Assembly (NCBI GenBank): GCA_903934925.1 | Contig: CAIZPS010000001.1 | Span: forward strand, 1-37,537 | Reading direction: 5' to 3' | Source: an uncultured bacterium | GTDB lineage: Bacteria > Actinomycetota > Actinomycetes > S36-B12 | DNA: 37,537 bases | Shown: positions 1 to 37,537 of the stretch, in pieces | Layout: each line of letters starts with the position of its first letter | How positions within the stretch are numbered: the first letter of the stretch is position 1 | Notes under the pieces: model-generated | What the model was told of the DNA's origin: nothing | Database searches by the model: none | The model's input: the letters and a program-made list of their open reading frames with translations, nothing else | Made by a program: the position numbers and the translations under genes

Positions 1-44
1 ACAGGCGAAGACACTCTTTCCCTACACGACGCTCTTCCGGATCT
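1..44 (+). other. Illumina TruSeq HT P5 adapter/index contamination at contig end (non-biological)
   Basis: Positions 11-44 read ACACTCTTTCCCTACACGACGCTCTTCCGgATCT, the TruSeq read-1 adapter with one extra G. Positions 3-10 AGGCGAAG match, from memory, the TruSeq HT i5 index D505, and positions 1-2 'AC' match the end of the P5 stem ...CTACAC. Confidence 0.96.
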
Positions 45-1924
45 CCGGCAGGCGTGGACTGTTCGCTGGGGTCGTCGGACGATATCGGGGCACGCTGCAG
101 CTCGCCCATCCGGACTTCTCGCTGCTGCCCGACGGAACTGCCGAGGACGCGCTGGCGGTGCTGGAGTTCGCCGGTGCCCTCATCCCGATCTACCCCGCCG
201 CGAAGTCCGTCACGTCCTGGCAGGTCAACTCGGCTGTCGAGGTCGTGCGCTCGTACTTCGATGAGTTGCCCGATCCCATTCCGGAGTCGGTGCGGCGCGA
301 GCACGATCTCGAGAGTCTCGGCGATGCGCTGACCGGGATCCACCGCCCCACGAGCCGTGCCGACATCGACGCGGCGGTGCGGCGCCTGCGCTTCGAGGAG
401 GCCTTCGTCCTGCAGGTCCTGCTCGCCCAGCGCCGCGCGGCCACGCGAGCGCTGTCCGCGACGCGCCGCATCCCTGCGGAGAGCGCGCTGGTGGAGGCGT
501 TCGATGCGCGCCTTCCGTTCGCCCTCACTGCCGGGCAGCTTGCCGTATCGGAGCAGATTGCCGACGACCTTGCCGACGAGCATCCGATGCACCGACTGCT
601 GCAGGGTGATGTGGGAAGCGGCAAGACAGTTGTGGCGCTGCGCGCGATGCTGCGCGTCGTGGATGCCGGTGGTCAGGCCGCACTCCTCGCCCCTACGGAG
701 GTCCTTGCCGCCCAGCACCATCGCTCCATCTCCGCCATGCTGGGGCCGCTGGCTCAGCGGGGACAGCTCGGTGGCTCGGACATCGGCACCAGGGTCGCAC
801 TGCTCACGGGCTCGCAGCGCATGTCGGAGAAGCGCAGCCAGCTTCTCGATGTGCTGTCCGGCGACGCTGGAATCGTCGTCGGCACCCATGCGCTGCTGCA
901 GGAGCATGTCGACTTCAACGACCTCGCCCTCGTGGTCGTCGACGAGCAGCACCGCTTCGGTGTTGAGCAGCGGGCGGCGCTCGCGGCGAAGTCGCGAGAG
1001 GGTACGCGGCCGCACGTTCTGGTCATGACGGCGACTCCTATTCCACGGACCGTGGCGATGACGACGTTCGGCGACGTTGACGTGTCGACTCTTGCGGAGG
1101 TCCCGGCCGGGCGCGCACCGGTGGCGACACACGTCATCCTGGCTGCGGAGCAACCGGCGCACCTGGCGCGTGCGTGGCAGCGGGCGACGGAGGAGGTGCA
1201 AGCGGGGCATCGCGTCTTCGTGGTGTGTCCCCGCATCGGCGACGGCTCGGACGAGGACGGTGGGCCGTCCGGCGACGGTGCGGCTGATGGCGATGCACCG
1301 CGCTCCGCGGCAGTCCTCGATGTCGCCCGGCAGCTGCGCGAGGGCCCGCTTGCTCAGGCCCGCGTCGGCGTCCTCCACGGTCGCATGACGTCGGAGGAGA
1401 AGGACGACGCCATGCGCCGGTTCGCCGGCCCGCGTGATGCTGACGCGCTCGATGTCCTCGTGGCTACCACGGTGATCGAAGTCGGTGTCGACGTGCCGGA
1501 GGCGACCATGATGGTGATCGTGGATGCGGATCGATTCGGCATGTCCCAGCTGCATCAGTTGCGCGGGCGCGTGGGCCGGGGATCCCTGCCAGGCCTGTGC
1601 CTGCTCATCACCGACGCCGAGTCCGGCTCTCCGGCTCGTTCGCGACTGGATGCCGTGGCCTCCACCACGGACGGCTTCGTGCTCTCCGAGCTCGACCTCG
1701 AACTCCGTCGGGAGGGTGACGTCCTCGGCACGTCGCAGTCAGGCATGCGTCGAACTCTGCGCCTGCTCGAGGTCGCGAGGCATGCCGATGTCATCGTGGC
1801 AGCACGGGAGGCAGCTGTTCGCACGATCGAGCAGGATCCAACCCTCGCGACCATTCCTGGTCTGGCTCATGCGGTCGATGCCCTGGTGCGCGATGACAGC
1901 ACCGAGTACCTCGAGAAGGCGTGA
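45..1924 (+). CDS. recG: ATP-dependent DNA helicase RecG, 5'-truncated
   Basis: Frame stays open from just after the adapter (GRRGLFAGVVGRYRGTLQLAHPDFSLLPDG). Walker A GDVGSGKT, DEQH box VVVDEQHRFGVEQR, TATPIPRT, HQLRGRVGRG. Confidence 0.95.
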
Positions 1925-14746: not shown

Positions 14747-17068
14747 ATGGAACCGCGGGAGTTCTCCTCCGTGCGGAACGAGGTGGCACGTCGCCCCGGG
14801 CTGGATGGCCCGGGGCGACGTGCTGCGCTCACCGAGCTCACCGACGGGTGGCTGGTTGAGCTCTTTCAGCGTGCTCTTTCGTCCACCGCACAGTCCATGT
14901 GCCTGGTGGCGGTGGGTGGGTACGGTCGCCGGGAGCTCACGCTCGGCAGCGACCTCGATCTGGTGCTCCTGCACAGCGGTTCAGGTGCTGTGGCCGCTCA
15001 GGTGGCGGACCTGCTCTGGTACCCCATCTGGGATTCAGGTGTTGCGCTGGATCACAGTGTCCGAACCACCGACGAGGCCAGGAGTGTCGCTGCCGAGGAT
15101 GTTCGCGCACTGCTGGGCATGCTTGATCTGCGGGTCATCGCCGGCGATGCGGATCTCGCTGCGCGGGTCAGTGCCGACGTGCTCGCCGACTGGCGCGCGT
15201 CAGCTGAGCGGCGGCTGCCCGAACTGCACACCATGGTGTCGGACAGGCGCGCCCGCTTCGGCGAGGTCGGCCAGATGGTCGAGCCGAACCTGAAGGAGTC
15301 CTACGGCGGTCTGCGCGATGCGACTGTCCTCGCTGGCATCAGTGCCTCATGGATCACGGATGTGCCGCACACGGGGTGGGAGGAGAGCGTCGGCTTTCTG
15401 CTCGATGTGCGCGAGAGCCTGCATCGCCTGACGGGCTCCTCGGGAGATGTCCTGCTGATGCAGGAGCAGGCCGCGGTAGCCCAGGACCTCGTCGGCGTCG
15501 ACGATCCGGATGCGCTCCTGCGTGCGGTCTACGACAGCGCTCGAGCCGTCGCCTATGCCTCCGACGTCGCGTGGCACCGCGTCGAGCGCATCGTGGCCGG
15601 CCGCCGTCGTCGATCGATCCGGTCGCTGCGTAGCCGTGGTCCGATCCGCCTGCCGCTGGCCGAGGGCGTCGTGATGCAGGAGGGCGAGGCAGTGCTCGCC
15701 TTGGATGCGCGGCCGGCCGATGATCCGGGGCTCGCGCTTCGCTCGGCGGCCGCCGCGGCACAGGCCGGAGTGCTGCTGTCCCCGCACACGGTCGAGCGCC
15801 TGGCGACGGAGTCCGACCTGCCTCCCGTGCCCTGGACCCGCGAGATGCGGGAGTCCTTCGTGTCGCTGCTCGGCGCCGGGGCCGGACTTCCGGCGGTGTG
15901 GGAGGCCCTCGATCAGGCGGGCCTCGTCAGCAGCTGGCTGCCCGCCTGGCAGGTGGTGCGCTCGGCCCCGCAACGCAATGCCCTGCACCGGCATACCGTC
16001 GACAGGCACCTGGTCGAGGCAGCCGTGCAGGCCGGATCCCTCACACGCAACGTGGACCGCCCTGACCTTCTCCTCGTGGCTGCGCTCCTGCATGACATCG
16101 GCAAGGCTCGTGCCGGGGACCACAGCATCGTCGGCGCTCGGATCGCGGAGGAGCAGTGCGCGGCCATGGGCTTCGGGGCGCAGGACATCGCGGTGGTCGA
16201 GACTCTTGTGCGACTGCACCTTCTGCTCCCCGATACGGCGACGCGACGTGATCTCGACGATCCCACGGTGATCGACGAGGTGGCCCGCGCGGTGGGAACG
16301 GTCGAGGTCCTCGACCTGCTCCATGAGCTGACGATCGCGGACTCGTTGGCCACCGGACCTGCGGTCTGCTCGGAGTGGCGCTTCGGGCTGATCCACGATC
16401 TCGTCACGCGGGTGCGGGGAGCGCTCGACGGTCGCCATCTCCCTGAGCCACCCGGCCTGAGCGAGCACCAGCGAACCGCCCTCGAGCATGAGGGGGTGTG
16501 GGTGCTCATGGAGGTGGAGGAGGAGACCGTTCGCGTGACGGTCGCTGCGCGGGACCACCTGGGACTGCTGGGCACCGTGGCCGGGGTGCTGGCGCTCAAC
16601 CGGCTGCATGTGCTCGGCGCCCGTGTCACGACCGTTGAGGGCAGGGCGGTGCAGGAATGGACAGTGCGCCCCGCATTCGGCGACCCGCCATCGGCCACCC
16701 AGGTGGGCGACGACATCCGCCGTGCCATCGAGGGTACGTACGACGTCGCCGATCGCCTGGCTCGCCGCGAGGCCGACTATGCGGTGGCGCCCCCGCCCGG
16801 CGGCTTCCCCGCCCCGTCCGTCGAGGTCATCGACCAGCCGGGATCCGACACGACCGTTGTCGAGGTGCGTGCGCACGACGTCCCCGGGCTGCTCTTCCGT
16901 CTCGGGCGGGCCGTCGCCGCAGCGGATGTCGACATCGTGGGCGCCAAGGTCGACACGCTTGGGTCGGATGCCGTGGACGTGTTCTTCGTGCGCAGTCCTG
17001 ACGGTGGGCCGCTGGGCCCTGATCGTCGTGCGGCGCTGCGTGTCACGGTCCTCTCCGCGCTGTCCTGA
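14747..17068 (+). CDS. glnD: [Protein-PII] uridylyl-/adenylyltransferase GlnD
   Basis: Nucleotidyltransferase motif AVGGYGRRELTLGSDLDLVLLH, HD domain LLLVAALLHDIGKARAGDHS, C-terminal ACT repeats; downstream of glnB. Confidence 0.94.
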   Translation: MEPREFSSVRNEVARRPGLDGPGRRAALTELTDGWLVELFQRALSSTAQSMCLVAVGGYGRRELTLGSDLDLVLLHSGSGAVAAQVADLLWYPIWDSGVALDHSVRTTDEARSVAAEDVRALLGMLDLRVIAGDADLAARVSADVLADWRASAERRLPELHTMVSDRRARFGEVGQMVEPNLKESYGGLRDATVLAGISASWITDVPHTGWEESVGFLLDVRESLHRLTGSSGDVLLMQEQAAVAQDLVGVDDPDALLRAVYDSARAVAYASDVAWHRVERIVAGRRRRSIRSLRSRGPIRLPLAEGVVMQEGEAVLALDARPADDPGLALRSAAAAAQAGVLLSPHTVERLATESDLPPVPWTREMRESFVSLLGAGAGLPAVWEALDQAGLVSSWLPAWQVVRSAPQRNALHRHTVDRHLVEAAVQAGSLTRNVDRPDLLLVAALLHDIGKARAGDHSIVGARIAEEQCAAMGFGAQDIAVVETLVRLHLLLPDTATRRDLDDPTVIDEVARAVGTVEVLDLLHELTIADSLATGPAVCSEWRFGLIHDLVTRVRGALDGRHLPEPPGLSEHQRTALEHEGVWVLMEVEEETVRVTVAARDHLGLLGTVAGVLALNRLHVLGARVTTVEGRAVQEWTVRPAFGDPPSATQVGDDIRRAIEGTYDVADRLARREADYAVAPPPGGFPAPSVEVIDQPGSDTTVVEVRAHDVPGLLFRLGRAVAAADVDIVGAKVDTLGSDAVDVFFVRSPDGGPLGPDRRAALRVTVLSALS
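14786..14823 (+). repeat. Perfect 16-bp inverted repeat with 6-nt loop inside the 5' end of glnD
   Basis: GCACGTCGCCCCGGGC-tggatg-GCCCGGGGCGACGTGC; arms 14786-14801 and 14808-14823 are exact reverse complements. Confidence 0.95.
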
Positions 17069-17152
17069 CGCGCAGGTTGTCACGGTCCTCTCCGCGCTGC
17101 CCTGGCGCGCAGGTTGTCACGGTCCTCTCCGCGCTGCCCTGACGCGCAGGTA
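17042..17152 (+). repeat. Tandem direct repeat, 3 copies of 37 bp, glnD 3' end to ffh 5' end
   Basis: Unit GTCACGGTCCTCTCCGCGCTGCCCTGACGCGCAGGTT at 17042-17078, 17079-17115 and 17116-17152; copies differ by 1-2 substitutions. Confidence 0.95.
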
Positions 17153-28392: not shown

Positions 28393-28870
28393 TCGGCTTG
28401 AGCACCGATGGCCGACGGAACAGGGCGAGCGGATCCAGGTAGGTCTCTCCCCGGAGCAGGCCGACGTGCAGGCACCCGGCGAGGCCGCCGCAGTGGCCTC
28501 CCGTCGGTGCGACCGTGCCGATGGTGTCGCCGGCCGCCACCGGAGAGCCCGCCCGTCGGAGGGCATGCACCGGCTCGTAGGTGACGCGGCGTCCGTCCGC
28601 CAGCCGGACCGTCACAACGGGCTTTCCGGCGATGACGCCGGCGAAGTCGATGATTCCGTCGGTGGCCGAGCGGACCGGCTGGTCGGTCCGAGCGCCGAAG
28701 TCGATCCCTCGATGACCGGGACCCCAGCGGGACGTCGGGGGATCGAAGGAGGCCACTACGGCCACCGGCTCCACGGGCCATACGGGGCCAGGCACGGGGA
28801 GGCCCAGCGAGAAGGCGAAGACCATGACCGGGATGACGGGGATGACGGGGATGACGGGCACGGCGACCAT
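28367..28870 (-). CDS. Secreted M23-like (LytM/peptidase_M23) protein
   Basis: Signal-like N-terminus [27 protein letters not shown]23 core [25 protein letters not shown]...[35 protein letters not shown]. Confidence 0.85.
28832..28858 (+). repeat. Tandem 9-bp repeat (GATGACGGG x3) in the signal-peptide region of the M23-like gene
   Basis: Three perfect copies at 28832-28840, 28841-28849 and 28850-28858, preceded by a degenerate copy; encodes (Val-Ile-Pro)n on the - strand. Confidence 0.93.
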
Positions 28871-36217: not shown

Positions 36218-36888
36218 AGCGGCGTCCCACGGCCCAGGACGCCGTGCTGTCCGCCCTGCGCGAGGACATCCTCGCGGGCGTCCTGGCGCCGGGCGACCAG
36301 CTCGTGCAGGAGTCCCTCGCCGAGCGCTACGGAGTGTCGCGGGTGCCCCTCCGTGAGGCACTGAAGATGCTGGAATCAGAGGGACAGGTGGTCAACCACC
36401 CGCATCGCGGCTACTTCGTCGCCGAGCTGAGCGTGGGCGACCTGCGCGAGGTGTACCACCTTCGCGGGCTGCTCGAGCGCGCGGCACTGGAGTCCGCCGT
36501 CCCGCTCCTCGAGGACTCCGACATCGACGAACTGACAGCCTTGTGCGACGAGGTCGACGCCGCTGCCGTCGATGCGGACGTGGTCGCGATGGCCGAGGCC
36601 AACCGGCGTTTCCATTTCGCCCTTTTCGACGCCGCCGGCCTTCCGCGACTCTCCCGACTCCTGCGGCAGCTCTGGGACGCCACGGACGCGTACCGCGCCC
36701 TGTACTACCAGGGGGCTCCCAACCGGACCCGCGTCCAGGACGAGCACGCGCGCATGCTCGATGCCCTGCGGCGTCGCGACATCGACCGCGTCATCGTGCT
36801 GCATGACGAGCACCGCGCGCATTCTGTGGCCGCAGTGGAGTCCATGCTCACCGCCTCCCTGCGTCCCGCCCTCCGATCCGTCCGATAA
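36214..36888 (+). CDS. GntR family (FadR/FCD) transcriptional regulator
   Basis: wHTH LREDILAGVLAPGDQLVQESLAERYGVSRVPLREALKMLESEGQV, then an all-helical FCD domain; overlaps the CoA-transferase stop. Confidence 0.94.
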   Translation: MKRRPTAQDAVLSALREDILAGVLAPGDQLVQESLAERYGVSRVPLREALKMLESEGQVVNHPHRGYFVAELSVGDLREVYHLRGLLERAALESAVPLLEDSDIDELTALCDEVDAAAVDADVVAMAEANRRFHFALFDAAGLPRLSRLLRQLWDATDAYRALYYQGAPNRTRVQDEHARMLDALRRRDIDRVIVLHDEHRAHSVAAVESMLTASLRPALRSVR

Positions 36889-36928
36889 GCCGACCGCACC
36901 TCACCACCACTGCCCACCTGGAGACACC

Positions 36929-37537
36929 ATGAGCGCCACCCCGCAGACCCCCGCTGAACTGATGAACATCGACTATCTCCTCAGTGAGGAGGAGAAGGCC
37001 ATCCGTGACGTGGTCCGCGACTATGTCGACCGGCGCATCCGCCCCGACGTGGCGGACTGGTTCGAGTCCGGTGACATCCCGGCCCGTGAGCTCGCCCGCG
37101 AGCTTGGCGAGCTCGGCGTGCTCGGCATGCATCTCGAGGGGTACGGGTGCCAGGGGACCTCTGCCGTGGCCTACGGACTGGCCTGCCTCGAGCTCGAGGC
37201 GGGTGACTCGGGTATTCGTTCGCTCGTGAGCGTGCAGGGCTCACTTGCGATGTATGCCATCCATGAGTTCGGGTCCGAGGAGCAGAAGCAGGAGTGGCTG
37301 CCCCGCATGGCCGCGGGCGAGGCGATCGGATGCTTCGGACTGACGGAAGCTGACTTTGGCTCCAACCCCTCGGGTATGCGCACGAGTGCCAAGCGCGACG
37401 GCGACGACTGGGTGCTCGACGGGTCCAAGATGTGGATCACCAACGGCATCGTGGCCGATGTCGCGGTCGTCTGGGCGCGCACGGTCGAGGGGATCCGCGG
37501 CTTCGTCGTGCCGACGGACACTCCCGGCTTCCAGGCC
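36929..37537 (+). CDS. Acyl-CoA dehydrogenase, probable glutaryl-CoA dehydrogenase, 3'-truncated by window end
   Basis: MSATPQTPAELMNIDYLLSEEEKAIRDVVRDYVDRRIRPDVADWFESGDIPARELARELGELGVLGMHLEGYGCQGTSAVAYGLACLELEAGDSGIRSLVSVQGSLAMYAI...GCFGLTEADFGSNP; frame open to the last base. Not in the supplied ORF track. Confidence 0.88.
   Translation, partial: MSATPQTPAELMNIDYLLSEEEKAIRDVVRDYVDRRIRPDVADWFESGDIPARELARELGELGVLGMHLEGYGCQGTSAVAYGLACLELEAGDSGIRSLVSVQGSLAMYAIHEFGSEEQKQEWLPRMAAGEAIGCFGLTEADFGSNPSGMRTSAKRDGDDWVLDGSKMWITNGIVADVAVVWARTVEGIRGFVVPTDTPGFQA

Follow-up and report, generated by a model that had tools for sequence, protein, structure and literature searches.

An untrimmed Illumina adapter with its sample barcode at the start of a bacterial contig, and the recG gene that it interrupts

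Introduction

The DNA analysed here (the window) is a contig of 37,537 nucleotides, C1, from the assembly of an uncultured bacterium (302 contigs, 2.73 Mb). Its start, which reads ACAGGCGAAGACACTCTTTCCCTACACGACGCTCTTCCGGATCTCCGGCAGG, runs directly into a recG gene lacking its own beginning, which raises the question of whether the first 44 bases belong to the bacterium at all, how they came to stand there and where the start of recG has gone. It is almost beyond doubt that bases 1-44 are an assembly artefact, a leftover Illumina adapter with a sample barcode and not bacterial DNA. No function attaches to them and they have no biological content, and artefacts of this kind are already known and published (PMC11536531). 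The recG interrupted here is an ordinary gene, and its missing first part lies at the end of a different contig in this assembly.

Results

Aligned over their full length, bases 1-44 correspond to the 3' portion of the dual-index P5/TruSeq Read 1 adapter, laid out as AC, the index AGGCGAAG and ACACTCTTTCCCTACACGACGCTCTTCC[G]GATCT (Table 1). In the alignment to P5 followed by AGGCGAAG and TruSeq Read 1, 43 bases matched, with one inserted G and no mismatches; positions 11-39 are identical to ACACTCTTTCCCTACACGACGCTCTTCCG, and no adapter match appeared in 100 dinucleotide shuffles of the window with up to three mismatches allowed. The G+C content is 55% at 1-44 versus 69% at 45-1000. In a comparison with the Illumina TruSeq dual-index (HT) P5/Read 1 adapter, 43 of the 44 bases agree in sequence and the index is one of the eight published codes; the differences are an extra G before GATCT and a P5 segment reduced to its final two bases. 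The window start shows the marks of a dual-index adapter read into an assembly: the Read 1 adapter with its one inserted base, an 8-base i5 code directly before it and the P5 bases AC before the code, the whole sitting at base 1 of C1 with its 5' side toward the outside of the contig. The index is the one known as D505; a literature search for AGGCGAAG together with that label found no paper. The barcode itself is the fifth in the eight-barcode list TATAGCCT...GTACTGAC (PMC6481090, PMC7465061).

Table 1. Positions of the adapter parts, the interrupted gene and the false extension in the window.
Feature	Positions	Strand	Basis
P5 flow-cell segment, final two bases AC of ...GAGATCTACAC	1..2	+	Alignment; longer P5 before the same index on C66
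i5 index AGGCGAAG, fifth of eight TruSeq HT i5 codes	3..10	+	Sequence; C66; lists in PMC6481090 and PMC7465061; five other public contigs
TruSeq Read 1 adapter with one inserted G, CTCTTCCGGATCT in place of CTCTTCCGATCT	11..44	+	Shuffle search and alignment
False N-terminal extension QAKTLFPYTTLFRIS	2..46	+	Open-ended ORF 2..1924; not to be translated
recG, 5'-truncated, about codon 110 to stop	45..1924	+	NCBIfam PRK10917.2-1; Pfam; alignment to same-genus full-length recG

A second copy occupies bases 1-55 of contig C66 (G000, locus L002) of the same assembly, which begins CACCGAGATCTACAC-AGGCGAAG-ACACTCTTTCCCTACACGACGCTCTCCGATCT. Its index is identical to that of the window, more of P5 is retained, and its indel is a one-base deletion, not an insertion; the same index at the starts of C1 and C66 points to one barcoded library. 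The 12-base string CTCTTCCGATCT is absent, as an exact match, from the window and from the C66 start, and a search of the genome with up to three mismatches found no intact adapter end, because both copies carry indels; an exact search for CTCTTCCGATCT therefore misses them. The P7/read 2 adapter was likewise not found in this genome with up to three mismatches. The original prediction, that the contig starts with a TruSeq read-1/P5 adapter with one inserted G, is thus confirmed by the alignment and the shuffles, its assignment of the preceding index to the TruSeq HT i5 set agrees with both published lists, and the view that AC completes the P5 stem gains support from C66, where CACCGAGATCTACAC stands before the same index.

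Homology to recG is certain from base 47 onward. The NCBIfam model PRK10917.2-1 was matched from profile position 107-108 through 744 of 744, and the Pfam domains DEAD, Helicase_C and RecG_dom3_C were found, both the helicase motor and the C-terminal domain of RecG being present in the window. Bases 45-1924 hence follow the family model of this ATP-dependent DNA helicase to its end, but the first ~109 codons of a full RecG are absent from the window and were located on contig C117. The break interrupts the ~737-codon protein at about codon 109-110, inside the wedge domain, which is cut off in the window and is found only when C117 is added, the piece there carrying Pfam RecG_wedge (E 3e-14). 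When the N-terminus of a relative was used as the query, the missing part was found in a single place in the genome (C117:1-324, minus strand), the C117 piece covering residues 2-108 and the window residues 110-134. The last of these 108 N-terminal codons finishes precisely on base 1 of C117, with no adapter there, and lies 0-4 bases from the recG of the window; upstream of the N-terminal codons C117 continues into another long open frame, which is consistent with real chromosome. With two unassigned codons set between them, the C117 piece and the window tail match L125, a full-length relative, with 566 identities in 735 positions. A recG is present in each of the 13 other same-genus genomes searched, its open frame mostly spanning at least 740 codons, and no second recG was found in the genome of the window. 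Since the pieces on C117 and C1 fit one full-length relative, C117 and C1 are neighbouring contigs, the adapter lying where the sequence was broken.

The missing recG N-terminus that had been predicted is therefore the one found on C117. The further claim, of untrimmed library sequence fused to the middle of recG, stands as to the fusion, given the C66 copy, the N-terminus on C117 and such artefacts in many unrelated assemblies, but not as to the place, which is near the start of the gene. Also well founded was the warning that no ORF should be called across the adapter: in the open-ended ORF 2..1924 the recG frame crosses it uninterrupted by a stop, so that gene callers allowing open ends can add the false peptide QAKTLFPYTTLFRIS. 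The practical value of these results is one of housekeeping, namely trimming of bases 1-44, annotation of recG as 5'-partial and an indel-tolerant adapter screen of the assembly (at least C1 and C66); left untrimmed, the adapter conceals that C117 and C1 adjoin.

Exact adapter matches in a sample of public sequences comprised at least 123 copies on at least 120 genome contigs. Among the matches listed, 122 of the 123 copies lie no more than 200 bases from the contig end that their 5' side faces, and for viral contigs, again among the matches listed, 126 of 128 copies lie within that distance of such an end. The same eight-code list is represented among the public matches listed by at least seven of its eight i5 codes, AGGCGAAG occurring at least five times. 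Within the genus of the window, three of 14 genomes are affected, the window's own and two others. Adapters were also observed in the first 60 bases of contigs of genus or family relatives, namely L135 (G001:C95), L137 and L139 (G013:C135 and C261) and L140 (G170:C93); the index is TAATCTTA in L137 and GGCTCTGA in L140, and the adapter of L139 carries an inserted C.

Discussion

According to the threshold used, 1,020-1,110 of the 15,657 MGnify reference assemblies have been reported to contain adapters, which are concentrated at contig ends and break contigs; the problem is widespread in MAG databases (Moeller et al. 2024, PMC11536531). The window likewise has its adapter at a contig start, in reverse-complement orientation and at a contig break, but the exact 12-base CTCTTCCGATCT screen of those authors would miss the copies on C1 and C66. 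It is conceivable, though we are doubtful, that adapters surviving in released genomes are enriched for indels in some pipelines, trimming and screening having removed the intact ones; if so, contamination would be undercounted by exact-match screens. The numbers behind this idea are too small for a conclusion: indels occur in both copies here and in one of the two of a sister genome, versus five variants of any kind in 123 copies of the general sample (among the matches listed). As a general cause of adapter survival, indels are weakened as a candidate by the intact TTCCGATCT in 118 of the 123 public copies among the matches listed.

As to how the artefact arose, sequencing of a short library fragment would have run past the insert and into the P5 adapter; adapter, index and orientation are as observed, and the read-through was probably that of read 2. 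The adapter would have been left untrimmed, possibly owing to an indel within or close to its end, and the assembler may have taken the adapter-bearing read at a weakly covered point of recG, the contig ending there. The first 108 recG codons would thereby have been left at the end of C117, where they are located. The chance that bases 1-44 are instead genuine bacterial DNA resembling an adapter is negligible. Nothing was found in its favour, and an adapter, a listed index and the P5 stem would have to follow one another in the right order, do so twice, occur nowhere but at contig starts and divide a conserved gene. Moreover, a sample of the class has the adapter in two of 395 genomes, both of the window's family, and lacks it in the other 393, and the one match outside the window's genome is likewise an adapter opening a contig. 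This reading is refuted by the recurrence of the index where a second contig begins and by the continuation of recG on C117. An assembly of 302 contigs with an estimated contamination of 4.4% could also harbour a true chimera, the adapter joining unrelated pieces and the recG tail being foreign to the genome. We consider this very improbable, since the C117 piece and the window tail, two codons apart, are both close to the same full-length relative and the genome has no other recG.

The exact junction can be read in two ways. C117 ends in ...GAACTG, in frame, and by homology the next conserved codon, window 47-49, lies six bases on; window 41-46 reads ATCTCC, exactly six bases. We favour the reading in which 41-44 are adapter with a G inserted at 39/40 and four genomic bases are missing between the contigs, because the end of an adapter is retained on ligation and the C66 copy also has an indel. 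Alternatively, bases 40/41-44 could be genomic, which would place the junction 4-5 bases earlier and join a 3'-shortened adapter, ...CTCTTCCG, to genomic (G)ATCTCCGGC with no inserted G. C117 would then abut the window exactly (...GAACTG + ATCTCCGGC), translating ...REL-I-S-GRRGLF, with a genomic ATCT between GAACTG and CCGGCAGG. That C117 stops in frame just as many bases before the conserved codon as window 41-46 supplies speaks for such a junction, and relatives differ at these two codons (RA, TP, KA, KV), so that IS is allowed. The genome would, however, have to share the last four or five bases of the adapter by chance, a ligated adapter normally retains its 3' T, and the one-base indel of the C66 copy arises without need of such a reading. 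On balance the earlier junction seems unlikely; it would be a variant of the same artefact and leaves its nature unchanged.

An error in the adapter oligo or in the read may explain the extra base, as may a shortened adapter followed by genomic sequence that happens to read GATCT. Exact searches of viral contigs for the G-inserted and T-deleted forms gave no match, the intact form being abundant there, so that the inserted G is an uncommon form. A long-read or consensus error, or an adapter-synthesis variant, had been put forward for it; of these, a long-read origin is improbable, both adapter and index being Illumina sequences and the second copy having a different indel, and an error in the adapter oligo may still account for it.

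At the far end of the window, no adapter and no overlapping contig in the assembly were found, and the contig ends inside an acyl-CoA dehydrogenase-like frame (36572-37537). Elsewhere in the window, a 37-base tandem repeat (17041-17151; three copies, 95% matches) spans the end of a glnD-like gene (stop 17068) and the gap before an ffh-like gene (start 17155), and a 9-base tandem repeat, ATGACGGGG, is present in 3.9 copies at 28824-28858, in or beside a minus-strand open frame preceding an rpsB-like gene.
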